Source of the DNA: Sipunculus nudus
Lineage: Eukaryota; Annelida; Sipuncula; Golfingiida; Sipunculidae
Length of the DNA: 64,000 nt
Direction of reading: 5' to 3'
Assembly: GCA_026874595.1 (NCBI GenBank)
Contig: CM049312.1
Location: forward strand, 74,992,429 to 75,056,428
The position numbers and the translations under genes were made by a program. Of the stretch, positions 12,901-59,800 are shown in pieces (within the stretch, counting starts at the first letter, position 1; each line of letters opens with the position of its first letter). The notes under the pieces are model-generated. The model had not been told where the DNA came from and searched no databases. It saw only the letters and a program-made list of their open reading frames with translations.

Positions 12901-15900
12901 GTATCTTCCTATATGAGTTATAAACCTGCGAAACGTTTTTCAACTGATGCTACTGAAGCCAGTTTGTAAAATATTTTACAAGAATAATCCCTACAATAAT
13001 TCTTAAAATAATTGTCATTAATGGTTCCACATGAATGATTTTTGGCTGAATTATGGAAATTGAATTGATTAATTTTACCATATATGTTAGCTGTGTTATG
13101 CTGTTACATCTAGCCTGGCACCATTTAATCAGCATCTATTACATCATGCCACTAGACATTTAGATTTCAGGTTAACTTTGGTTAATATTGACAAGAAATT
13201 TTTTTTTAAAAGCTTTTAAAAAATTTAGATTTATGATTTAAGATATTCATCATACCAGGCATTGTTACAATCATGGATATTCAGCACTCTGTGGCTATAT
13301 AAAGACAACTGTACATGGATTATAAATTTTTGGTATCCCTGCTCAACTTAATTCAAGAATTTGCAATTAATGAGATATATCTGTATTTTAATTTTGCATT
13401 CAGTGTGCATCCCTAATAATTGTATCCCCAGACAAAGTCGGGGGATACTATGTTTTCAAACCGGTCCCGCCGCCGCCGCCGCTGCATATAAATCTTGTTG
13501 GTGCGATAACCCAAAAAATAATTCACTGAACTTTACCAAACTTTGTATATGTATAGATATGGGTAAGAGGACGATGCCTATTTAAAATGAGGTCATGACC
13601 TATACTAGGAGAGTGTCCTTGACCTTGAATAACTCCAATTTTGGGGAAAATCACACAAATTCTTTAATATCTCAAGAAATCTTGCATGGATTTATCCCAA
13701 AATCAAGTTGATGGAAGATCATGGATAGGGTTGTCATGTTCCAGAAACTGGTGGCGCCACCTATTATTCTTTACTTGTTTTCATGCCGTTTAATACCCCC
13801 AAAATTGCCACCTTACAGTACTGTGAGCATTATAAGTCAAAAACTAATGGACAGATTTCTTTTATATTATGCATATACGTAGGTATGGGTTATGGGATGA
13901 TGTTTATTTAAATTGGGGTCATGACCTTTCCTATGATAGTGGCCTTGACCTTGAATATTGCCATATATGGTGAAAATCACACACCTCTTATGATATCTCC
14001 AGTGTTGATAGCCATATGGATTTCAAAGAAGACTTATGTATGGCCCACCTCTAAAGTAAGAACCCTATAGGTTCTAGGGTCATGAGGTCAAAGGTCAAGG
14101 TCACTGGACTGGCATTTAAAAAGATACTGTGGATTTCATCCCAGGTCTTCCATCTTGAATATATAGCTCACTTGCCAATAGTGGATGATCCATATGAATT
14201 TTGGGGTCACAAGGTCAAAGGTCAAGACCACAGGAGCTATCTGTCCAAAAATTAGTTTCTGGATGATAATTCCATCTTTTATTGATGTATGGATTTCAAA
14301 CTTGACTTGTATTTGACCCTTTGGAAAAGCAAGACCCGAATTGATTTTGGGGTCATGAGGTCAAAGGTCAAGGTCACAGGAAACCTCTTTAAAAAGGTTG
14401 TGGATGCAATTTCAGCCAAATAATTCATCTCAGGTCATCTATCTTGAATATATAGCTCACTTGCCAATAGTGGATAATCCATATAAATATTGGGGTCACA
14501 AGGTCAAAGTTCAAGGCCACAGGAGCTATCTGTCCAAAAATTAGTTTCTGGATGATAATTCCTTCTTTTATAGATGTATGGATTTCAAACTTGACTTGTA
14601 TTTGACCCATTGGAAAAGCAAGACCCGAATTGATTTTGGGGTCATGAGGTCAAAGTTCAAGGTCACAGGAAACCTCTTTAAAAAGGTTGTGGATGCATTT
14701 TCAGCCAAATAATTATCTCAGATCTTTCATCTTGCACATATAGTTCACCTGCTAAGAGTGGAAGACCCCTATCAATTTTGATGTCACAAGGTCAAAGGTG
14801 AAGGTCACAGGAGCCATCTGTCCAAAAATTAGTTTCTGGATGATAATTCCTGCTTTTATTGATGTATGGATTTCAAACTTGACTTGTATATGTCCCAGTG
14901 GAAAAGCAAAACCTGAATTGATTTTGGGGTTATGAGGTCAAAGGTCAAGGTCTCAGGACACATCTTTAAAAACATCTGGATGCATTTTCAGCCAAACATT
15001 TCATCTCAGATCTTTCATCTTGCACATATAGTTCACCTGCCAAGAGAGGAAGAACCCTATCAATTTTGAGGTCACAAGGTCAAAGGTGAAGGTCACAGGA
15101 GCCATCTGTCAAAAAATTAGTTTCTGGATGATAATTCCTTCTTTTATTGATGTATGGATTTCAAACTTGACTTGTATTTGACCCATTAGAAAAGCAAGAC
15201 CCGAATAGATTTTGGGGTCATGAGGTCAAAGGTCAAGGTCACTGGACACATCTTTATAAAGATTGTGGATGCATTTTCAGCCAAACAATTCATCTCAGAT
15301 CTTTCATCTTGCACATATAGTTCACTTGCCAAGAGTAAAAATCTCCTATCAATTTTGAGGTCACAAGGTCAAAAGTGAAGGTCACAGGAGCCATCTGTCC
15401 AAAAAATTAGTTTCTGGATGATAATTCCTGCTTTTATTGATGTATGGTTTTCAAACTTGACTTGCATATGTCCCATTGGAAAAGCAAGACCAACATTGAT
15501 TTTGGGGTCATGAGGTCAAAGGTCAAGATCACAGGACACATCTTTAAAAAGATGTGGATGCATTTTCAGCCAAACATTTCATCTCAGATCTTCCATCTTG
15601 CACATATAGTTCTCATGCCAAGAGAGGAAGAAAACTATCAATTTAAGGTCACAAGGTCAAAGGTGAAGGTCACAGGAGCCACCTGTAAAAAAAAATTAGT
15701 TTCTGGATGATCATTCCTGCTTTATTGATGTATAGATTTCAAACTTGACTTGCATATGTCCAATTGGAAAAGCAAGACCCAAATTGATTTTGGGGTCATG
15801 AGGTCAAAGGTCAAGGTCACAGGACACATCTTTAAAAAGATCAAGGTCACAGGACCAACATCTTCAACAAGATTGTGGATTGTTAGATGGAAGAAACAAT

Positions 15901-18900: not shown

Positions 18901-21900
18901 TTAGAAATCCTTTTACCAGGGCAGTTTCTGTGATTTTTTTATGATGTTTGGTCCCTTTTAGAGGATGTTTGTTGTTCAATTTCCGACCTGTCAGAAATCC
19001 AATATGGCCACCAGGAAGCCATCTTTAAATTCCTTCAGAACATATTATCTCAAGAACTATTAAAGTGAATGCAGTGGGATGTATATTAATGTTATCTTGC
19101 ATTGGGTCAAAGATTTCTTAATAAATATGACCATCATTTATGAAAGCTCAGTACAGTTGGCTTGTATTGAATAAAAATTAATATGGAAGCACCCGTTTCA
19201 CAATAATTCTTGCATGGATTTCCTTGATCTTTTGCTATATTTTCATCTTAAATGTGGCCTGTGTGGTATTCCTTTTGAGACTGACAGGTATCGAGCAAGC
19301 TGTGGGATTAGTTCCTGATAGCTCAACCACCATACATCTTGCCTCAGACCATCATTGTATCCCCAGACAAAATCGGGATACTATGGTTTCACGATGGTCC
19401 CACCGCTGCCGCAGAAAAATCTTGTGAGTGGGATAACTAAAAAATATATCACTGATTTTTTTCAAACTTTACATTTGTATAGATATAGGTAAGGGGAAGA
19501 AGCCTTTTTAAAATGGGGTCACGACCTATGCTAGGAGAATGACCTTGACCTTGAATAGGTCCATTATTGCTGAAAATAACACAAATTCTTAAATATCTCA
19601 AGTAAGCTTGCATGGACTGGTCTAAAAATTAAGGTGACCGAAGATCTTGGATAGCCTTGTGATATTCCGGAAACTGGTTGTGCCACCTATTATTCTTTTC
19701 TTGTTTTTACGCCTTTTAATACCCCCATAATTGCCACTTGACAGTACTGTAAGCATTTTAAGTCAAAAACTAATGGACAGATTTCTTTCATATTATGCAC
19801 ATGTAGAGAGATTGGCTATGGGATGAGGTCTGTTTACATTTGGGTCATGACCTTTACCATGAGAGTGGCCTTGACCTTTAATGTGTCCATATTTGGTGAA
19901 AATCACACACCTCTAATGATATCTCCAGTGTTGATAGCCATATGGATTTCAAACGTGACTTGTGTATGGCCCACTACTAAAGTAAGAACCCTATAGGTTC
20001 TAGGGTCATGAGGTCTAAGGTCAAGGTCACTGGACTTGCATCTTACAAGATACTGTGGATGCATTTTAAGCCAAACTTTCAAGGTCTTCCATCTTGAATA
20101 TATAGCTCACTTGCCAATAGTGGATGATCCATATCAATTTTGGGGTCACAAGAACAAAGGTCAAGGCCACAGGAGCTATATGTCAAAAAATTAGTTTCTG
20201 GATGATAATTCCTGCTTTTATTGATGTATTGATTTCAAACTTGACTTATATATGTCCCATTGAAAAAGCAAGACTCAAATTGATTTTGGGGTCATGAGGT
20301 CAAAGGTCAAGGTCACAGGACACATCTTTAAAAAGATTGTGGATGCATTTTCAGCCAAACATTTCATCTCAGACCTTTCATCTTGCACATATAATTCATC
20401 TGCCAATAGAGGAAGACCCCTATCAATTTTGAGGTCACAAGGTCAAAGGTGAAGGTCACAGGAGCCATCTGTCCAAAAATTAGTTTCTGGATGATAATTC
20501 CTGCTTTTATTGATGTATGGATTTCAAACTTGACTTGTATATGTCCCATTGGAAAAGCAAGACCCGAATTGATTTTGGGGTCATGAGGTCAAAGGTCAAG
20601 GTCACAGGACACATCTTTAAAAAGATTGTGGATGCATTTTCAGCCAAACAATTCATCTCAGATCTTTCATCTTGCACATATAGATCATCTTCCAAGAGTA
20701 GAAGACCCCTATCAATTTTGAGGTCAAAGGTGAAGGTCACAGGAGCCATATGTCCAAGAATTAGTTTCTGGATGATAATGCCTGCTTTTATTGATGTATG
20801 GATTTCACACTTGATTTGTATATGTCCCATTGGCAAAGCAAGACCAGAATTGATTTTGGGATCATGAGGTCAAAGGTCAAGGTCACAGGACACATTTTCA
20901 AAAAGATGTGGATGCATTTTCAGCCAAACATTTCATCTCAGACATTTCATCTTGCACATACAGTTCCCCTACCAATAGAGGAAGACACCTGTCAATTGTG
21001 AGATCACAAGGTGAAAGGTGAAAGTCACAGGAGCCATCTGTCCAAATATTAGTTCCTTAGATGATAATTCAAGCTTGGATTAATATATGGATTTCAAACC
21101 TGACTTATATATGGCCCATCAATAAATCTAGACCTCTATTGATTTATATATAAAAGTGGATGATCAATATCAATTTTTGGGTCACAAGGTCAAAGGTCAA
21201 GGCCACAGGAGCCATCTGTCCAAAAATTAGTTTCTGGATGATAATTCCTGCTTTTATTGATGTATAGATTTCAAACTTGACTTATATATGTCCCATTGAA
21301 AAAGCAAGACCCCAATTGATTTTTGGGTCATGAGGTCAAGGTCGCAGGACCAACATCTTCAAAAAGATTGTGGATTGATAGATGGAAGAAACAATAATTG
21401 CTTGCCAAGTGTCAGTATATACTGCTAAAAATGGGGGCCTATTCTTAAAGGGGGGGGGGCCTACTATGTCTGGGGATACTCTGGCACCTGCGGTGCCAAG
21501 AAATATCTAGTTCACTATGTTTTAACCAGACATATATGATAAGAATTTATGGCATTGTAGAAAGTTTAAACAAAATTGGCATATAGGTTCTGCAACAATT
21601 TTACTAGTTGTGAATCGCAGCCCATGATGTCGCAGGTCATGCTTGGCAGCTGAGCGTCATGACCCATGGGTCACTTTTTTGCTATATATTTTGATCTTAT
21701 ATTTGCCCTGTGTGGTGTTCCTTTTGAGACTGACAGGTATCAAGTAAGCTATGGGAATAGTTCTTTATACCTTAACAATCATACATTTTCTTCAGACCAT
21801 CAATTCACTGTGTTTTAACCAGACATAGGTGATATATATTTCTGTTGTCGTAGAAAAATTCAACAAATTGGCAAATTGGTTCTTCAAAATTTGACTGGAA

Positions 21901-42820: not shown

Positions 42821-45800
42821 CTGCAAGACAAGCAATCATATTATAGATACAGTTTATACCTGTATTAGGTCACACATCTGGAATAATGCGTACTGACTGA
42901 TCACATATGCTTCATCACAGACCATGCCTGTATTAGTTTGTATAGAGAATACAGGAACATACCATCTTGATTATATAAAATATATACTTATTACTGCATA
43001 AATCTTTAATTTATTACAGCTAAAACATTCACATTCATCCAGTTAATGTCATAGCAAACTCAGGTACCAGTAATATACACCAGATTAATTTCCTTAAATT
43101 ATCAAACAGTTTCACACAATATATGCATATAATTGTTATCCTGTTTATGGTATATTCTATTCAGGGTTTAAACAGAAGTAGTTAGTAAAGACTTGTCAAA
43201 ACTTTTTATAATGTGCAATAGTAAATAAAAAACCATGACATAACAAGTCATCAGAGCTAGGTTTATAGTTACTGTAATATATCTAATACTTCATACACTA
43301 TATACATGTAAAATTTCATACATACTACACACAGATTGTATTTATTACCTCTGCTGCCTTGACATCCTCCTTGTGTGCTGCGATCGCGTCCTTTGTGGCA
43401 TCATCAACATCTCGTCTCTCGTTGCCCTCACCATGACCAACTGATATGACGGAAGATGTCAGATTAAAGCACAATCAGCTACAGTACTGATATGTAACAA
43501 CTGATACATTCTGAATATTTTGAAGAGACATCAGATAAATATATTGTCACAAAAACTTTAGCAGATCACCAAGAGAAATCCCAGAGTTCATATGAAGATT
43601 TCTAGAAGTTTCTAATAAATGGCCATGTATCAAAAGTATTTGTGGTTTTAAGAAGCCTGATGATTCACTGCCTCTGAGGTTTGTTTCTATCCATATTGTC
43701 TCTTATCATGTCCCTAGACCTGCCAATGCCCCTGACCATATTGAAATGGTAATGTAATGCTGATTACTGCTGCTCAAAAAGTCATTTAAAAAATCTGCCA
43801 AATTAAGCCTGGGATACAGGGAAGTGTTCATCTATATTAAATTGATGGTGGTGACACTCAAACATTGTCATAAAACTCCTTTGTGGCCACGCCTTGTAAA
43901 TACCTGTTTTCATGAACCATACCCAGTGAATTATGAAGGGGGGGGGGGGGGGGGTTGTGTAAATTTCCATATTTTCCAAAAAGTCATGAGAAATTTGACA
44001 TTATTTCATTAAGGGGCTATCACAGCGCCTTCTGTCATCAGAAACTATGTCAATTTCTGACAGATGCACAGTGAATTCAGCCTATGTAAACTCGCCCCAT
44101 GGATGAACAATTCTGCACAAAACCAGCAAAATTCCCATGGACCAGTGCCAATACAAAAACAGGTGATATGCTGGTTAATCTTAACATGAGATTACCACTT
44201 CCAAGTCACTACAGAAACATCAGTGAGAATATTATAAGCCTGCAAGATTTGGGAATCTATAATAAATTGTATTATGTACAACTATGAATAAAAGAGGTTG
44301 TACACTTTCTTAACTACAGCTGTTTTTCCAAAATATATAAATACAGATACACATACAGCATTGGCATCAGCATAAATCACTTTGAAGGTTTCACAACTAA
44401 AGATTTCACTGACATGGCATTTATTTGCATTGCTATAAGGAAACAGAGACCAACCTTTATTGAAACTGTGTGCCACTCTCTTGAGGAAATCAAGAACCAC
44501 ATCAGCAGCTTGTTCCTCCGCAGGTTTGTTTGGGGTCGGAGTTCGTAAACGGCTCAGCCTTGGTGCCACCACAGGCATGGACAGACGACTAGCCGGTGTT
44601 GGGGGCGGAGGCAACAGATATTGGCTGTAACGCGGTGATCAATAAGACATTATCAACAGATGAATTAACATTTTATAGATCCATTTTTATCTTTTTTTCA
44701 AGGGAATTAATTTTAATGGAATTGAAACCTTAACATGCATAATTACACAGACAGTTCTTGCATATTCTAAATAAGATAAGTTGTTCATGACTAAGTGCAG
44801 GATATCCCATAATGACAGTTTATTATGATAAAGAAAATTTATGCAGATTAAATGTTTTAAAGGGTGGAGGCATCAAATGTATTAATCCAAAGTGATCTTA
44901 TGACTTGTATATATACATACATACATACATATATACATATTTATAATCACCTTTGCAGTTAAATACCACTGAAGAAGCTACCAACTTTAAGTATGCCTAT
45001 AAAGAGAGTCTTCTGCAGATTTTGGCAATATGTACTTACCTAATAACAGACCCCAGGGTGATGGCAGATGGAGCTGGAGACTTCTGAAAATACAATGACA
45101 GAACCTGATAATTACTGTGACAAGAAAAGGTTAATTTCATCATAATCAACAGTTTATAAATTTTTTATATGGAAAGCAAATGAATATTGGTTTTGTCCTG
45201 CATTCTGTCACTTTGCATTCTTTATGTGCTTTTATTAAATTATTCATGTAACAAACTGGTGATTTCACTGATTAAACCTTGCTGCATAGAGCAGATAAAA
45301 AAAAAAAACAGTGTTTTTTCCCATGTAACTCTCTCATATAGACCATTTTAAAGCATTCATTATTTTTTATTATCTGTGAATGATGCCTCATTTTCTTTAA
45401 AGAAATGCCCTTTCATTTGTACATGCAGAAATCTGAATAAACAATACACCTGATTTCTGGTTAGATACATTAGTTTGTTATGTAACCAGCAGATGGCACT
45501 ATTGATGTCAGTCAACCCAGTGAATGGCAACTTGCAAAGAGAAAATCTAGAGAAACTGAGAAATGAGTAAACAAGATAAAATAATCTACACATTCTTACA
45601 TGTTACATATAAGATATACTTAGAACAGAAAAACATTGCAGTTTATTATGATGTAACCATATGCCATCGAATAAGATAAAGATAACATTGTACAAGTCCT
45701 AAAAGAGTCTCACAATTTTTTATTATATTTACTTTATACTATATTTACTTATATTTATAAAAAAACTTGCAGGTGACACAATCAGAAGAACTGATGGCTT

Positions 45801-48800
45801 TGAGTTGTTCTATCTCTGACTTACCTGAGGTGTCCTGATGGCTTTGAGTTGTTTTACCTCTGACTTACCTGAGGTGTCCTGATGGCTTTGAGTTGTTTTA
45901 CCTCTGACTTACCTGAGGTGTCCTGATGGCTTTGAGTTGTTTTATCTCTGACTTACCTGAGGTGTCCTGATGGCTTTGAGTTGTTTTATCTCTGACTTAC
46001 CTGAGGTGTCCTGATGGCTTTGAGTTGTTTTGTCTCTGACTTACCTGAGGTGTCCTGATGGCTTTGAGTTGTTTTATCTCTGACTTACCTGAGGTGTCCT
46101 GATGGCTTTGAGTTGTTTTATCTCTGACTTACCTGAGGTGTCCTGATGGCTTTGAGATGTTTTATCTCTGGCTAACTTGAGGTGTCCTGATGGCTTTGAG
46201 TTGTTCTATCTCTGACTTACCTGAGGTGTCCTAATGGCTTTGAAATGTTCTATCTCTGACTTACTTGAGGTGTCCTGATGGCTTTGAGTTGTTTTATCTC
46301 TGACTTACCTGAGGTGTCCTGATGGCTTTGAGTTGTTTCATCTCTGACTTACCTGAGGGGACCTGATGGCTTTGAGTTGTTCTATCTCTGACTTACCTGA
46401 GGTGTACTGATGGCTTTGAGTTGTTCTATCTCTGACTTACCTGAGGTGTCCTGATGGCTTTGATTTGTTCTATCTCTGACTTACCTGTAGGGTCCTGATG
46501 GCTTTGAGTTGTTTTATCTCTGACTTACCTGAGGTGTCCTGATGGCTTTGAGTTGTTTTATCTCTGACTTACCTGAGGTGTCCTGATGGCTTTGAGTTGT
46601 TTTACCTCTGACTTACCTGAGGTGTCCTGATGGCTTTGAGTTGTTTTATCTCTGACTTACCTGAGGTGTCCTGATGGCTTTGAGTTGTTTTATCTCTGAA
46701 TTACCTGAGGTGTCCTGATGGCTTTGAGTTGTTTTGTCTCTGACTTACCTGAGGTGTCCTGATGGCTTTGAGTTGTTTTATCTCTGACTTACCTGAGGTG
46801 TCCTGATGGCTTTGAGTTGTTTTACCTCTCACTTACCTGAGGTGTCCTGATGGCTTTGAGTTGTTTTATCTCTGACTTACCTGAGGTGTCCTGATGGCTT
46901 TGAGTTGTTTGATCTTTGACTAACCTGAGGTGTCCTGATGGCTTTGAGTTGTTTTGTCTCTGACTAGCCTGAGGTGTCCTGATGGCTTTGAGTTGTTTTA
47001 TCTCTGACTTACCTGAGGTGTCCTGATGGCTTTGAGTTGTTTTATCTCTGGCTTACTTGAGGTGTCCTGATGGCTTTGAGTTGTTTCATCTCTGGCTTAC
47101 TTGAGGTGTCCTGATGGCTTTGAGTTGTTCTATTTCTGACTTACTTGAGGTGTCCTGATGGCTTTGAGTTGTTTTATCTCCGACTTACCTGAGGTGTCCT
47201 GATGGCTTTGAGTTGTTTTACCTCTGACTTTCCTGACGTGTCCTGATGGCTTTGAGTTGTTTTACCTCTGACTTACCTGAGGTGTCCTGATGGCTTTGAG
47301 TTGTTTTATCTCTGACTTACCTGAGGTGTCCTGATGGCTTTGAGTTGTTTTATCTCTGACTTACCTGAGGTGTCCTGATGGCTTTGAGTTGTTTTGTCTC
47401 TGACTTACCTGAGGTGTCCTGATGGCTTTGAGTTGTTTTATCTCTGACTTACCTGAGGTGTCCTGATGGCTTTGAGTTGTTTTATCTCTGACTTACCTGA
47501 GGTGTCCTGATGGCTTTGAGTTGTTTTATCTCTGGCTAACTTGAGGTGTCCTGATGGCTTTGAGTTGTTCTATCTCTGACTTACCTGAGGTGTCCTAATG
47601 GCTTTGAAATGTTCTATCTCTGACTTACTTGAGGTGTCCTGATGGCTTTGAGTTGTTTTATCTCTGACTTACCTGAGGTGTCCTGATGGCTTTGAGTTGT
47701 TTCATCTCTGACTTACCTGAGGGGACCTGATGGCTTTGAGTTGTTCTATCTCTGACTTACCTGAGGTGTACTGATGGCTTTGAGTTGTTCTATCTCTGAC
47801 TTACCTGAGGTGTCCTGATGGCTTTGATTTGTTCTATCTCTGACTTACCTGTAGGGTCCTGATGGCTTTGAGTTGTTTTATCTCTGACTTACCTGAGGTG
47901 TCCTGATGGCTTTGAGTTGTTTTATCTCTGACTTACCTGAGGTGTCCTGATGGCTCTGAGTTGTTTTACCTCTGACTTACCTGAGGTGTCCTGATGGCTT
48001 TGAGTTGTTTTATCTCTGACTTACCTGAGGTGTCCTGATGGCTTTGAGTTGTTTTATCTCTGAATTACCTGAGGTGTCCTGATGGCTTTGAGTTGTTTTG
48101 TCTCTGACTTACCTGAGGTGTCCTGATGGCTTTGAGTTGTTTTATCTCTGACTTACCTGAGGTGTCCTGATGGCTTTGAGTTGTTTTATCTCTGGCTTAC
48201 TTGAGGTGTCCTGATGGCTCTGAGTTGTTTTACCTCTGACTTACCTGAGGTGTCCTGATGGCTTTGAGTTGTTTTATCTCTGACTTACCTGAGGTGTCCT
48301 GATGGCTTTGAGTTGTTTTATCTCTGAATTACCTGAGGTGTCCTGATGGCTTTGAGTTGTTTTGTCTCTGACTTACCTGAGGTGTCCTGATGGCTTTGAG
48401 TTGTTTTATCTCTGACTTACCTGAGGTGTCCTGATGGCTTTGAGTTGTTTTATCTCTGGCTTACTTGAGGTGTCCTGATGGCTTTGAGTTGTTTCATCTC
48501 TGGCTTACTTGAGGTGTCCTGATGGCTTTGAGTTGTTCTATTTCTGACTTACTTGAGGTGTCCTGATGGCTTTGAGTTGTTCTATCTCCGACTTACCTGA
48601 GGTGTCCTGATGGCTTTGAGTTGTTCTATCTCCTGCCTCAGTTGATTTATTTCATCTTCCGCAGCACGCTCGCCCTCTATCCTCCTTCTTCTTTCCTGTA
48701 ACAAGACCAGTAAGTCAGGACCATGGTTACTTGGCAGCCCCCGTCCTAGCCATGAAAATATGACTCACAGGCCTTTTTTTAAACAAGAGCAATGCAAATT

Positions 48801-51800
48801 TGCATAATATGCCCATCAGATGTCTTGTGACCTCTGACCTCATAAATATGTGTGAATTTTGCTGAGAATTAAATTTAGGTGGGAAACTGTATTGGTTAAT
48901 ATTTATAATGAGTTTCATGAATATCCATAAGAATTTTGGTTAGTCATCATGGAGCCACGAAGTCTGGTGACTTCTGACCTCATCAAATATGCATGGTTTT
49001 TTGTCGAGAATAAAACTAGGCGAGATATTATATAGGTTAATATTTCTGTTGAGTTTTATGAAAATCCCTCATATTTCTGGTAGGTTAACATGGTGACACC
49101 TCAAAGTAGCCTCATGACCTCTGAACTTCTTAAATATGTGTGGATTTTAGCTTATAATCCAACTCGGGTTAAAAAATATTGGCAAGTAGTTATGGTAAGT
49201 TTCATGAGAATCCAACAAATTCCTGGTAAATTATTGTGGCGACACTAAAGGTTAATGGAAGGAGGCAAGACAGACAGACAAACCCTGGGTATATACCATA
49301 ATATATGTTTTGATGTTAATCCTCATAATATTTGAGCAATTATGTGATAAAAAAGGTCTATGTTAGCAATCATCATGCTGTGAAGACATGTAAGATACTT
49401 TAGATGTGATATTTTTAGTTATTTAAACAGGATATTGTTACTTCTTCTCTTAAATTGACACATAAATAAAACTGTTTAGATCCCTCTGGGTTGTCCTAGC
49501 TGCCACCCCAACGTCACCAGAACTTAAATATCAGCGTTTTGGCAGCAGACTGACCCTACCTCGGGCCTTGCTTTATCCAACATGACTACTTGTATTTGCT
49601 GGAGTAGGCAGATGAAAAGGGGTGAGGTTTTCCTGGGGTGCAAATTATTCTGACAATCCTTAAATGAAAACAAGCAAAATCGTGAAATTTAAGTCCCCTG
49701 CTTCTGCCTCTTGTTGTTTTTCATGCTTACCTGATCAATACGATTCAGTTTTTATGTTTGCCTGATGATGTTTCCACATGTCATATTGGCTGTGTTTAGT
49801 TTTCATGGTGCCACTGAAGATGTCTCAACATATCATAATTTTGGTTGTGAAATAGGAACAAAATTTTTTGTTTGTTTTGGAGCTGGAGAGAATAAATTAT
49901 TAAACAGACACTCCAAAACCAATCCAAACCAAAGTATGCATAAGAGCAATCACTGACCCAAATTTGAATGAAATTGGATAATATTTAGGAAAGTTATCAC
50001 ACAGAAACAAAAACCTATGGAAGGACAAACATAAGGACAGAGAAACAGACATGGAGGCAAACCCAAATCAATGTCCCCTGTTCCAGGAAGCGGGGGACGA
50101 TTAAACACAGGTCACTCCCCTCCCCCCTCCCCAACTTCACCGGCAACTTGTACACTAGAGATCTTTATATAAGCTAATGTGCCATATTTGTGCTAGTTAA
50201 AGAATACAACCTACTTCATTACATAATCATTATGTGATCATCTATGAGAGACTCACATCCTCTAGCTGATCCTCTAGTGCCATTCTCTCCTCGTCTCGTC
50301 TACGGTTTTCTTGTGCTGCCTGACGCATAAACTTTTCATCTTCTTCCCTAGGAAAAAAAGTGAAGTTAAAAGTCAACATATTCCTCTTCTGGTTTTTTTT
50401 AAAAAGAGATTCTATACTGAAGTACAGAAGAAATAATTCTATAACTGTCCGGCTATCAACATCACATACATTCCTGAAGCTGTTGGGTACACTTAAACCT
50501 TATTACATGATCACCTGATCATTAGGATGACTTTTAGTCAAACAACTAACCTGATCATCTGGATGACTTTTAGTCAGGCAACTGAGCTTATCATCTGGAT
50601 GACTTTTTAGTCAAGCAACTGAGCTTATCATCTGGATGACTTTTTGTCAAACAACTAACCTGATCATCTGGATGACTTTTAGTCAGGCAACTGAGCTTAT
50701 CATCTGGATGACTTTTAGTCAGGCATCTGAGCTTATCATCTGGATGATTTTTTAGTCAAGCAACTGAGCTTATCATCTGGTTGACTTTTTAGTCAAGCAA
50801 CTGAGCTTATCATCTGGATGACTTTTAGTCAAACAACTAACCTGATCATCTAGATGACTTTTTAGTCAAGCAACTGAGCTTATCATCTGGATGACTTTTA
50901 GTCAAACAACTAACCTGATCATCTGGATGACTTTTAGTCAAACAACTAACCTGATCATCTGGATGACTTTTCAGTCAAGCAACTGAGCTTATCATCTGGA
51001 TGACTTTTTAGTCAAGCAACTGAGCTTATAATATGGATGACTTTTAGTCAGGCAACTGAGCTTATCATCTGGATGACTTTTTAGTCAAGCAACTGAGCTT
51101 ATCATCTGGGTGACTTTTAGTCAAACAACTAACCTGATCATCTGGATCACTTTTAGTCAGGCATCTGAGCTTATCATCTGGATGACTTTTTAGTCAAGCA
51201 ACTGAGCTCATCATCTGGATGACTTTTTAGTCAAGCAACTGAGCTTATCATCTGGATGACTTTTAGTCAAACAACTGACCTGATCATCTGGATGACGCAT
51301 ATTCAAGCAACTGAGCTTATCATCTGGATGACATTTAGTCATACAACTAACCTGATCATCTGGATGACTTTTAGTCAGGCAACTCAGCTTATCATCTGGA
51401 TGACTTTTTTAGTCAAGCAACTGAGCTTATAATATGGATGACTTTTAGTCAGGCAACTGAGCTTATCATCTGGATGACTTTTTAGTCAAGCAACTGAGCT
51501 TATCATCTGGATGACTTTTAGTCAAACAACTAACCTGATCATCTGGATAACTTTTAGTCAGGCATCTGTGTTATCATCTGGATGACTTTTTAGTCAAGCA
51601 ACTGAGCTTATCATCTGGATGACTTTTTAGTCAAGCAACTGAGCTTATCATCTGGATGACTTTTAGTCAAACAACTGACCTGATCATCTGGATGACGCAT
51701 ATTCAAGCAACTGAGCTTATCATCTGGATGACATTTAGTCATACAACTAACCTGATCATCTGGATGACTTTTAGTCAGGCAACTGAGCTTATCATCTGGA

Positions 51801-53764
51801 TGACTTTTTAGTCAAGCATCGAGCTTATCATCTAGATGACTTTTAGTCAAACAACTGACCTGATCATCTGGATGACGCATATTCAAGGAACTGAGCTTAT
51901 CATCTGGATGATATTTAGTCATACAACTAACCTGATCATCTGGATGACTTTTAGTCAGGCAACTGAGCTTATCATCTGGTTGACTTTTTAGTCAAGCAAC
52001 TGAGCTTATCATCTGGATGACTTTTAGTCAAACAACTGAGCTGATCATCTGGATGATGCAAATTCAAGCAACTGAGCTTATCATCTGGATGACATTTAGT
52101 CATACAACTAACCTGATCATCTGGATGACTTTTAGTCAGGCAACTGAGCTTATCATCTGGATGACATTTAGTCATACAACTAACCTGATCATTTGGATGA
52201 CATTTAGTCATACAACTAACCTGATCATCTGGATGACTTTTAGTCAGGCAACTGAGCTTATCATCTGGATGACTTTTTAGTCAAGCAACTGAGCTGATCA
52301 TCTGGATGACTTTTAGTCAAACAACTGACCTGATCATCTGGATGACGCATATTCAAGCAACTGAGCTTATCATCTGGATGACATTTAGTCATACAACTAA
52401 CCTGATCATCTGGATGACTTTTAGTCAGGCAACTGAGCTTATCATCTGGATGACTTTTCAGTCAAGCAACTGAGCTTATCATCTGGATGACTTTTAGTCA
52501 AACAACTGACCTGATCATCTGGATGACGCATATTCAAGCAACTGAGCTTATTATCTGGATGACATTTAGTCATGCAACTAACCTGATCATCTGGATGACT
52601 TTTAGTCAGGCAACTGAGCTTATCATCTGGATGACATTTAGTCATACAACTAACCTGATCATCTGGATGACTTTTAGTCAGGCAACTGAGCTTATCATCT
52701 GGTTTAATTTAAGTCAAGCAACAGACCTTATCATCTGGATGATACATATTCAAGCAACTGACCTGATCATCTGATGACTTTTAGCATTGCAACTTACCTG
52801 ATGATCTGGGTGACTTTTAATCACATGGCCAACCTACTAGACCTCTGTATCTTAGTCAACAAATCATTCTCTTCTGTTATAACACTGACTACTTCTTTAT
52901 TATCACCATTCTTTTTTTTTGGTAAAAGTCACTGTATTTTTCAATATCTCAAAAAAGATTAAATAATTAGATTTTAGTTTTAAGTTATAAAAAAGAGCCA
53001 ACCCATGACTGTTTTTATAGTTAATGACAATTAAGTGAGCTTGATAATCTTAATCTGACCTTCGTATTTTCTCCACGGCCTCTTTCCGTCTCAGTTCCTC
53101 ATCCAGCTCCTGCTGTTTCAGCCTCTCTCGTTCAGCCTCCCGCTCCTCTCGAGCTCGTCGTCTCTCCTGTGGCCCCATCCTGCCTGGGATCTTCTCGTTG
53201 TGCCAGTGTGTCCAGGGGGGATGCTTCACTGAAGGAGACATTAAAGGAGACATCAAGAAGAAATACAGTGAAACCTCATTTTGTCAAAGGTGAAGGGACT
53301 TACAATCAAATTTTGACTTATCACCGATTTGGCACAAGCAAGTTTTATAAGGTAGTAATTTAACTTCAAACACTGAGTATGAAACTTGACAAATGTAATT
53401 TTATTTAAGGATTTTCAACAGAATAAGGTTTTATTATATATCTAACTGTATAAACTTAACTAAAATGAGTGCATGATAAAGGGGGCAGCAAATTTGAAAT
53501 TAAGATGAGCTGAAGTTACTTCTTTTTAGTTTTGTAGAATATTTTGAAGACATAAAAAAAATCTATTCATGTGATTTTATGTGTGAAAAGTGTACTTATC
53601 ACCATTACAAAAAGAAAATAATATGTATTTTTTATACATGTCAGATTAATTTCCTGATTTTATTATTAAACAATATGTGTTTCCATTTTACCATGTGGAT
53701 ACTTCAAGTTTATGAGTGTTCACTCAATATAGGCAATAACCTGGCCTAATAAGGCTAGTATTAA

Positions 53765-56800: not shown

Positions 56801-59800
56801 TTTTATTTGCTTACGATTTACTTTTTAGTTAATTTCCATTTCATGAATATGCAAATTTAAAACTTTCATGAACAAAAAGGTAACCACATTATGTTTATCA
56901 ATTTGGTCTAATTTTTTAGCACAGCTGACTGTTAGTCAACTGATTGAGGTATAGGAATTGTGCTTTGTCCGTTGTCTGTCCGGCCGTCCGTTAGCAGGGC
57001 ACAAATCGTAACTGCTAGTCCTAGAAACTTCTAAGTGAACATCCAAAGAGGTCAATAAAAATTCTCCTTGGAAACCTGAAATTAGGTCACTGTGACCTAT
57101 ATTCTCTGAGCTATGGGGCTTGAAAGTACCCCCCAGAATAATAAAAAATATAATACAAAACCTTCAATATCTTGAAAATTAATGCATGGATTGTCATGAA
57201 TCTTGCCTTGAATATTGACCATGACTAGTTTTGTCAATTCCCGAAAAGTGGTGGCGCCACCTGTTTTTTTTTTATTTAAATAAATATTTTTCTATTTTTT
57301 TTACTATAAAATGACAACAATCATGTCAGTTTCTCAGCTGTAATTACATCTAGTGTCCCAAAATCTGGTGTGTTTACTGATCACAAGTGGATGCCATATA
57401 GTAATTACCATGTCTGTCTAGCTGTTCGTCTGTCTGTCTGTCCATCCAAACAAAGTTGTTTCCAGATAATAACTCCAGGTTGTATTGACACATGGATTTC
57501 AAACTTGACTTATGTATGACCCACCACTAAAGAACCTATATGATTATGGGGTCACGAGGTCAAAGGTCAAGGCCACAAAACTCATTTATTTAAAAAGATT
57601 TTGGCTGCATTGTAAGCCAAGCTTTTCATCCCAAACTTTCCATTTTGCACATTTAGCTGACTTGCCAGTATGGGGAGAGCTTAAATGAATTTGGGGTCAC
57701 ATGGTCAAAGGTCAAGGTCACAGAGGCCATCTGTTCACAAATTAGTTTCCAGATGATAACTTAAGTTCAGTTTGACATATTGGTTTCAAACTTAACTTAT
57801 ATATGACTCACCACTAAAGTAAGAACCATGTCGATTTTGGGGTCCAAAGGTCAAGGTCACAGGACTTATTTCTTTAAAAAGAATGCATATGCATTTGAAG
57901 CCAAACTTTTCATTGCAAACCTTCCATCTTTGAGATGTTGCTAATCTGCCAATCGGGAAAGATTCTGTTCAATATAGGGGTCATGAGGTCAAAGGTCAAG
58001 GTCACAGTACCCACTTATTTAGAAAGATTGTGGATGCATTTAAAGCCAAACGTTTCATCCCAAACCTCCCATCTTGCACATATAGCTGAGCTGCCAACAG
58101 GGGAAGAACCTGATTGATTTGGGGGTCACAAGGTCAAAGGTCATGGTCACAAGGGCCCATCTGTCCACATATTTGTTTCTGGATGATAACTCCAGTTTGG
58201 ATTGACATATTGGTTTCAATTTTGACTTATATTAGCCCACCAATAATGTATGAACCATTTAGATTTTGGGGTCATAAGGCCAAAAGTCAAGGTCACAGGA
58301 CCCACTTCTTTAAAAAGATTGTTGATGTATTTTTATCCAAACTTTCTGTCACAAACCTTCTATCTTCCAGTTGTTGCTCACCTGCAGATAGTGGAAGTAA
58401 CTTATGAAGGTCAAAGGTCAAGGTCATGTGGGCCATCTATCCACATATTAGTTTCCAGATGATAACACCAGTTTGGTTTGAAATATTGGTTTCAAACTTG
58501 ACTTATATATGGCCCAACACTTAAGTAAGAACTGTTGATTCTGGGATTATGAGATCACAGGTCAAGGTCACAGGGCCCACCACTTTAGATGGATTGTGGA
58601 TGCATTTTAAGCCAAACTTTTCATCTCAATCCTTCCATCATCAATATGTGGTGCACCTGCCAATAGGGGAAGTTTGCTTTTGATTTTGTGGTCACAAGGT
58701 CAAAGGTTAAGGTCACAGGGCCCATCCATTCACAAATTAGTTTATGGATGATTAGTCCAGTTTGGGTAGACAGGTAGGCTTCAAACTGATCACAGGACGA
58801 ATATTTTGGAAAAACTCATAAACATATATCCTTATAGACAAATGCAGCTGAGCGTCGAGACCCATGGGTCCCTAGTTTAAAGTATCCATTTGGAAATATG
58901 TTAAATGAAAGCTATTAACTGTGCAAATATCCCAACTGGTTAACTCAGTTCTTGCCTGAAATTTACAAACCAAGTTTCAGTGTACTGGTGTCGATGGTAG
59001 AATATGGTAGGTATAAAACAAAAATTATACGTCTTACCTACAAACAGAGCTCTTATGATTGGTCGAGTCAGAGTTGTAATGGATTCCACAAGAATGTCAT
59101 GACTGCTTTGTTCTGTTGCTAGGACCTGTTCTGTGACACAAAAGCATAAATATAAGATTCCTTATGTATGGAATGTGGTATGTGGTTAAATTGGTATTGA
59201 CTAAATAAATAAGGAGAGATTCCTTATGTGTGGATCTGGCATGCAGTATTCTTATCCTGAAAAATGAATTGCAATATGTAGGAATTTTTGCCGGTTCCGC
59301 ATGGTATCCAGGGCAACACAAGAACATGCATGCTGCCGTGCCGGTACATATGAAAAACCTCTCAACAAGCATTCCACATTCTGCACATAAGGAGTCTTAG
59401 CTGTACATTGGAAATCTGTTGTTCTGCTTGGACAGGTATATTTGAAGTACTTGGTGCAAATGGTGCAAATTTTTCTAAAGATAAATATATAAAAATGTTT
59501 GTTAACTGAAAAAAAAACAGACTGTAAAGACATCACTGCTCACAATTTTAACTATATATTTTTACCAATATGTAACTGGAATACTAATTAAAAAATAGAA
59601 AGCACTCAGTAGAAAGCAAATACCTCCACCCAGAAATAACATTCAGCTCCATTCAGAATAAGGAACAAGCTATCTGTCCTTAGATTGAAACTACAGCAAC
59701 CAAATTGTGAGTATATTCCTTGTCTACTGAACAGACCAGTATAATGTTGAACTTCTTCATATCATAAAACTTAATAAGGCAGACGGGCAAACTGCATGGT

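Follow-up and report, generated by a model that had tools for sequence, protein, structure and literature searches.

The exon-end array in the window

The 64,000-nucleotide stretch of the Sipunculus nudus genome analyzed here (hereafter the window; GenBank assembly GCA_026874595.1, contig CM049312.1, positions 74,992,429 to 75,056,428) contains a minus-strand gene in which a short exon runs directly into a long minisatellite, and the repeated unit of this minisatellite is the end of the exon together with its 5' splice site, or donor. Tandem Repeats Finder, which was used to delimit the arrays of the window, placed the array at 45791-48632 with a period of 44, 64.6 copies, 94% matches, and 0% indels, values that agree with the definition of a minisatellite (head-to-tail units of approximately 10-100 bp) and with an earlier sequence-only reading of the window, which had given about 64 copies at 45787-48636. 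The features on which the argument turns are listed below, where a vertical bar marks the exon-intron junction.

48597..48695, minus strand: coding exon ERRRRIEGERAAEDEINQLRQEIEQLKAIRTPQ, 99 nt, phase 0/0, with an open frame between acceptor TTGTTACAG and donor CAG|GTAAGT; ranked first in the exon scan
48591..48599, minus strand: first, frame-keeping donor CAG|GTAAGT, exon end at 48597; of donors 1-4, the sole one tested that reaches 45083-45040 without a stop
45791..48632, minus strand: 44-bp array with 64 full copies and a partial one of 26 bp, each unit being the last 36 exon nt and 8 intron nt
48457..48588, minus strand: copies 2-4, the nearest decoy donors, all weakened (CAA|GTAAGT, CAA|GTAAGC, CAA|GTAAGC; donor scores 9.5, 7.9, and 7.9 vs 12.7 for the first)
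46169..47884, minus strand: internal duplication with a 31-unit step, in which units 18-25 (47884-47533) are an identical block to units 49-56 (46520-46169)

Copy 1 of the array (48632-48589) consists of the last 36 nt of exon 48695-48597 followed by GTAAGTCG; its exon part, with the codons GAG ATA GAA CAA CTC AAA GCC ATC AGG ACA CCT CAG, is EIEQLKAIRTPQ. One additional upstream base is common to the exon and copy 2, so that a split of 37 + 7 is an alternative to 36 + 8, and either is close to the last 35 or so coding bases plus the donor CAG|GTAAGT that had been described previously. The donor word CAGGTAAGT (CAG|GTAAGT) is intact in 47 of the 64 full copies, GTAAGT in 51, and GT in 62, which bears out the claim of dozens of near-perfect decoy donors, and the terminal copy is a 26-bp fragment that ends before the donor. 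The array includes 25 distinct variants of the full-length unit, and the likeness between units is highest at a lag of 31 units (1,364 bp; mean identity 0.9745, 19 of 33 pairs identical). The hexamer ATAGAA occurs in copy 1, in the terminal fragment, and in 14 of the 64 full copies in all, while the interior mostly reads ATAAAA, a pattern that fits an exon-seeded array homogenised on the inside but does not prove it.

When the exon and array were used together as a DNA query against the whole genome (1,426,538,692 bases), all 29 matches fell within the window array; this search skips very common words, and matches restricted to the window are accordingly no proof of uniqueness. Within the same limit, the dispersal of the unit that would characterize an introner or other mobile element was not seen, as the window locus alone was matched. 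The protein encoded by the exon gave one match in the genome search.

The exon lies between introns of approximately 1.6 and 3.5 kb and runs in frame into 45083-45040 and then into 44624-44455, as summarized in the following gene model.

50257..50347, minus strand: preceding exon, EEDEKFMRQAAQENRRRDEERMALEDQLED
45084..48596, minus strand: intron carrying the array, approximately 3.5 kb, of which the array makes up approximately 80%
45040..45083, minus strand: next exon, KSPAPSAITLGSVI + 2 nt, with acceptor TATTTTCAG and donor TAG|GTAAGT
44455..44624, minus strand: following exon, in frame, QYLLPPPPTPASRLSMPVVAPRLSRLRTPTPNKPAEEQAADVVLDFLKRVAHSFNK after a split codon

The array is inside the intron, as the sequence-only reading had proposed, but does not fill it, since it occupies approximately 2.8 kb of the 3.5-kb intron (48596-45084) and its last copy has no donor. 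Reading beyond donor 1 yields VSRR and then an in-frame TAG at 12 nt, and the same VSRR + TAG at 12 nt follows when donor 2, 3, or 4 is joined to the next exon. As had been claimed, 44 is not a multiple of three (44 mod 3 = 2) and the stop comes early; because the distal donors bring TAG 12 nt on, a full-length protein requires the first donor. Truncated mRNAs with an early stop tend to be prone to nonsense-mediated decay (NMD), and the use of a distal donor in the window would be expected to produce mRNAs of this kind. The window exon had no match in Pfam, for which exon models of 272 and 439 aa were searched, and only a weak and unconvincing coiled-coil septin match in PDB (5.9e-5). When the exon was folded with five copies, the RNA structure was not unusual, as 199 of 200 shuffled sequences folded equally well or better (z = +2.20).

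A second minisatellite is found in the preceding intron of the same gene (50518-52823), with a 36-bp unit and approximately 64 copies. Several of its units contain CAG|GTTAGT or CAG|GTCAGT, and CAG|GTAAGT is present beside its 5' edge, with no contact to an exon end seen. In addition, repeats of approximately 145 and 288 bp with AAGGTCAAGGTCA-like stretches recur at 14135-15839, 19941-21119, and 57550-58673 of the window.

Arrays of the same anatomy across the genome

The possibility that the phenomenon is unique to the window was rejected because arrays of donor words were found at many other loci. The pattern of AGGTAAGT three times at spacings of 20-50 had 438 + 594 matches in the genome compared to 356 + 306 for the reversed pattern, and 11 arrays among the matches listed (L010-L020; sample A) were examined, of which seven read as exon ends (L012, L013, L015, L017, L018, L019, and L020), two do not (L010 and L011), and two were placed in neither class (L014 and L016). 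Sample B comprises eight arrays, seven of them new, among the listed matches of 112 for CAGGTAAGTA (control 73); six are exon ends (L021-L026), L011 is not, and L027 is in neither class. Sample C is the complete list of 77 matches for CAGGTAAGTC (control 50), which form 15 arrays including that of the window, and 13 of these are exon ends, with weaker calls for L012, L036, and L043; L040 and L044 are not. Sample D covers 20 of the 21 arrays among the listed matches of 487 for CAGGTGAGT (control 117), with eight read as exon ends (L073, L074, L076, L078, L080, L083, L085, and L086, the call for L074 being weak). Taken together, the four samples hold 49 distinct donor-word arrays, consisting of 30 exon ends, 16 that are not, and three in neither class, where the exon-end class was assigned by reading an open frame, a plausible acceptor, and a donor, with homology for nine. 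One of the arrays left in neither class, L016 (C2:6057000-6059000), has a 58-bp unit whose first copy, 123 nt from the edge of the piece examined, follows an open frame ending KYQRASINGHVYNLD|GTAAGT; this array is likely a further exon end, and its open frame had no match in Pfam.

The nine exons supported by homology, at a threshold of E < 1e-3 in Pfam or PDB, are as follows.

PKA type I regulatory subunit (PKA-RI) exon: 8.6e-25
ABCC2/MRP1 exon (ABCC): 1.3e-9
L-galactose dehydrogenase exon (AKR): 7.5e-14
Xan_ur_permease exon: 6.2e-5, below the curated cut-off; no match in PDB
Methyltransf_11 exon (MTase): 3.5e-5; tRNA methyltransferase at 0.0026 in PDB
HEAT_Maestro_2 exon (MROH-like array): 4e-7
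Kunitz_BPTI exon: 8.7e-19
Peptidase_M1 exon: 3.4e-11
Tfb2 exon: 1.4e-10

In eight of the nine, the alignment reaches to within two residues of the exon end (≤2), while the Kunitz match ends ten residues short. Homology up to the exon end indicates that the repeated coding part is ancestral and that the array derives from the exon. The window shares the exon-end anatomy with these nine loci but not the exon homology. Among the remaining exon-end calls sent to Pfam, L015 had a weak PH match (0.016) and the others had no match or one at chance level.

The calls were also compared with an automatic test, which asks for an open frame and an acceptor score of at least 1 at 60-450 nt upstream of the first donor and takes antisense GT sites as the null. 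In sample C, 10 of 15 arrays pass compared to 136 of 593 null sites (p = 4e-4), and 8 of 15 compared to 58 of 593 at a score of 3 (p = 3e-5); the test misses two exons supported by homology, L017 and L022.

Genome-wide, CAGGTAAGTC forms 15 arrays, 13 of them at exon ends, compared to four for the reversed word CTGAATGGAC, and single sites number 4,083 and 2,637, respectively, with copies inside arrays included. If the excess of 1,446 sites over the control is taken as real donors, arrays occur at 13 of 1,446 such sites vs 4 of 2,637 control sites (odds ratio 6.0, p = 7e-4). An enrichment of arrays at splice junctions is therefore suggested but not proven. We tentatively raise the possibility that splice junctions are hot spots of minisatellite birth in this genome, with approximately 1% of CAGGTAAGTC donors arrayed and the spliceosome taking the exon-proximal one. 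If so, the proportion would extrapolate to hundreds or more genes, and each array would be a natural competition among a handful to approximately 98 consecutive, near-identical 5' splice sites.

Of the 14 arrays that were walked by script, 9 have a period not divisible by three. The units of the ABCC-like array L017/L046 (C2:8512622; 42 bp) and the methyltransferase-like array L039/L055 (C10:37884642; 36 bp) are open in phase 0 over three units, and distal donors at these two loci would lengthen the protein without truncating it. Elsewhere, a near-identical 30-bp donor-bearing unit (GTGAGTGATCATCTCTGATTATGCTTACAG) is arrayed at L081 (C4:62539539), L084 (C5:16203712), and L087 (C6:21869540); since these loci are distant from one another but share the unit, a subset of the donor minisatellites is dispersed, perhaps carried by a mobile element.

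Arrays were also found on the acceptor side. An acceptor-word pattern had 3,550 matches compared to 2,015 for its control, and two of the seven arrays examined among the matches listed read as exon starts (L028 and L029, neither supported by Pfam), while one of the seven extended beyond the piece examined. L028 (C1:1625544-1636379) covers approximately 10.8 kb, and its 51-bp unit includes TTTACAG|G; in its last copy, the unit can be read as the beginning of a short exon, AEWEHRFWNPKDPEDCVDQ, after which GTAATT follows. The exon at L029 (C1:2333100-2334300, minus strand) is seemingly flanked on both sides, by a 23-bp array on the acceptor side and a 30-bp in-frame repeat on the donor side (YVPTSPVPQR), although the latter may be a coding repeat instead. 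The complete list for TTTTTNCAGG has 74 matches (control 10) in 13 arrays, and two of the 13 read as exon starts: L061 (C6:40.18 Mb), a Roco COR exon that is LRRK-like (LRRK2 2.4e-5; COR-A 1.1e-4, below the cut-off), and L064, which is possibly SLC5-like but has no such match in Pfam or PDB. L060 (C4:21023874) and L069 (C13:50412413) hold near-identical arrays of CAGGAAATCATAGGGCGCCC-type units, unlike exon starts, and are a dispersed repeat. Single sites of TTTTTNCAGG show no excess over the control (49,403 vs 55,605), and calibration on the acceptor side failed; with acceptor words uncalibrated, the seemingly low number of acceptor arrays is no more than a lead. A true rarity would fit a stricter choice of the first AG, and the existence of any such array fits exon definition; acceptor-side arrays such as L061 would test an exon-proximal rule at 3' splice sites.

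Decay of the decoys and choice of the donor

The fate of the decoy donors was followed in 14 arrays that a script stepped through (4 to 98 copies each, a few arrays being covered in part), with positions -3 to +6 counted as the donor; the walk stops early at indels in some arrays (e.g., PKA-RI and ABCC), for which the copy numbers are lower bounds. Over these 14 arrays, mismatches to the consensus amount to 0.056 per donor site and 0.066 at other sites. The two largest arrays are those in which a bias from selecting arrays by intact donors should matter least. In the window array (n = 65), donor positions carry 0.060 mismatches per position vs 0.031 elsewhere in the unit, and in the MROH-like array (n = 98) the values are 0.086 and 0.092, with GT kept in 80 of 98 copies (mean of other dinucleotides 0.84). 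We take this as near-neutral drift, in which the decoys are neither maintained nor purged.

In terms of strength, 46 of the 64 other window copies (the fragment included) score as high as the first donor. Copy 2 equals copy 1 in nine other arrays (PKA-RI, ABCC, L020, L012, L021, AKR, L035, MTase, and MROH-like), and in PKA-RI, ABCC, AKR, and MTase, decoys 36-54 nt downstream match the real donor, so that splicing must tolerate equal donors. Copy 2 is weaker in the PH-like array and L042, as it is in the window; for Xan_ur and L037, the comparison did not begin at the real first donor. A general rule of weakened nearest decoys was rejected on account of the nine arrays with equal copies.

We consider it probable that the window array is a quasi-neutral splice-junction minisatellite, one of a genome-wide class, that is tolerated through the choice of the exon-proximal donor by exon definition. 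A segment spanning the junction (the last 36 exon nt and the first 8 intron nt) would have been duplicated in tandem, and slippage and unequal exchange, including the large internal duplication, would have expanded it to approximately 64 copies, with growth directed into the intron because the upstream copy stayed functional as the exon end. Exon definition may pair the donor with the upstream acceptor across the exon of approximately 100 nt, such that the exon-proximal donor is mostly used, and the array would be tolerated for that reason. Under this choice, which the short 99-nt exon may favor, the duplication would be nearly invisible to the protein, and the downstream copies, ignored by the spliceosome, would decay as neutral DNA. 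The large number of such arrays in the genome also speaks for a process that is general and largely neutral more than for a device peculiar to the window gene.

Several observations weigh against this interpretation. Donor use is inferred, and the window exon has no convincing homologue in Pfam or PDB. Moreover, 21 of the 30 exon-end calls rest on reading an open frame and an acceptor without homology, and the raw number of arrays per site does not differ significantly between the donor word and its control (15/4,083 vs 4/2,637, p = 0.16). The CAGGTGAGT replicate, sample D, shows no excess in the automatic test (5 of 20 vs 133 of 583 null sites, the former uncorrected for a walk-back to the first donor that overshot at L083, L086, and L074; 2 of 20 vs 77 of 583 at a score of 3), and only 8 of its 20 arrays read as exon ends, with 3 of 20 exons recognized by Pfam. 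Finally, 12 of the 14 walked arrays have a lower mutation rate at donor positions than elsewhere, which could reflect selection, although a lower rate is also expected because the arrays were chosen by intact donors.

The main rival to exon-proximal choice would be partial use of the next donors, by analogy with the human IFI6 gene. Real isoforms would then arise from measurable use of the first few donors, and the extended exons would either feed NMD through the stop, as a copy-number-dependent brake on expression in the window gene, or lengthen the protein where units are stop-free multiples of three. The high scores of 46 of the 64 other window copies speak for such use, as do the open units of the ABCC-like array (42 bp) and the MTase-like array (36 bp). 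However, each distal donor of the window meets TAG at 12 nt, and its three nearest decoys are weakened, yet no general trend of this kind exists, as copies 1 and 2 are equally strong in PKA-RI, ABCC, AKR, MTase, and others. On balance, we regard IFI6-like isoforms as unlikely, albeit the best placed of the alternatives.

Considerably less probable is a selected device, in which the array is kept for regulation as a U1 small nuclear ribonucleoprotein (snRNP) platform or a splicing sink. CAG|GTAAGT is a perfect match to U1 and persists in 47 of 64 copies, and the lower donor mutation in 12 of 14 arrays, chosen as they were for intact donors, points in the same direction. On the other hand, donors vary more than the rest of the unit in the window and about equally in the largest array, and the arrays lie in unrelated genes; with no clear excess of conservation at the donor positions of these two arrays, there is no sign of a maintained platform or sink. 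Of the two options that the sequence-only reading had offered, a strong preference for the first donor thus fits better than a tunable sink or U1 platform.

A recursive splicing array, in which each CAG|GTAAGT would be both acceptor and donor of a zero-length exon, recalls the similarity of this string to ratchet points but is highly improbable, as the copies have no pyrimidine tract and their acceptor scores, from a matrix built on the consensus, have a median of -4.7 and a maximum of -2.0 compared to 4.9 for the real exon acceptor, unlike recursive sites with a functional 3' splice site abutting the donor. An assembly artefact, conceivable for a long array of highly similar units, is equally hard to credit given the 25 distinct full-length variants ordered with a 31-unit step and the same anatomy at other loci.

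Relation to known systems

The window array is real and was described correctly, and the phenomenon is more general than the window alone could show. What sets these loci apart is the natural occurrence of rows of up to dozens of 5' splice sites in genes that have known homologues and seemingly depend on the first donor for their correct product, such that the splicing machinery would have to pick the right signal among dozens of near-identical decoys in many genes alike. To our knowledge, work on how the spliceosome decides between equal 5' splice sites has relied mainly on a small number of engineered duplicates. Should annotation and RNA bear it out, the class would offer a useful assay, supplied by nature, for the selection of splice sites, and RNA sequencing combined with long reads would allow direct measurement of how donor choice depends on order, distance, and strength, as well as of any cost of long arrays to the gene. 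In the literature searched, no account was found of any genome that contains numerous arrays of this kind, which is weak evidence since most subscription journals lay outside the scope of the search and printed primes may escape matching.

The minisatellite of human IFI6 (6-16), which appears to be the closest precedent, reportedly gives multiple splice donors, as Turri and colleagues are said to have described in 1995. Two downstream repeat units of IFI6 act as donors, resulting in three mRNA species (PMC4526556). The likeness lies in minisatellite units as splice donors, in the window as putative ones, and in a unit that carries a consensus donor with copy 1 as the exon end. The unit of IFI6 is 12 bp long and in frame, and the window array differs in that its unit is 44 bp, shifts the frame, and leads to a stop after 12 nt, and in that the array extends over 2.8 kb and is one of many in the genome.

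Introns can also be gained when exon segments that bear AGGT are duplicated in tandem, as described for Rogers 1989, ATP2A1, and a multiple duplication of 24 bp in fission yeast (PMC4974935), and this process is similar in that a coding duplication with AG|GT puts coding copies inside an intron. Compared to these cases, the block here spans an existing junction and includes 8 intron bases, and the arrays reach approximately 98 copies; moreover, nothing shows that the window intron is new. In human segmental-duplication genes, gene structure is altered by internal tandem repeats that lie at exon-intron boundaries; the variable repeats average four 30-bp units, with those at boundaries linked to novel introns in recent paralogues (PMC2812944). 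These human repeats and the arrays of S. nudus have in common that minisatellites are located at exon-intron boundaries, whereas the arrays described here are long and stand beside exons of genes with known homologues.

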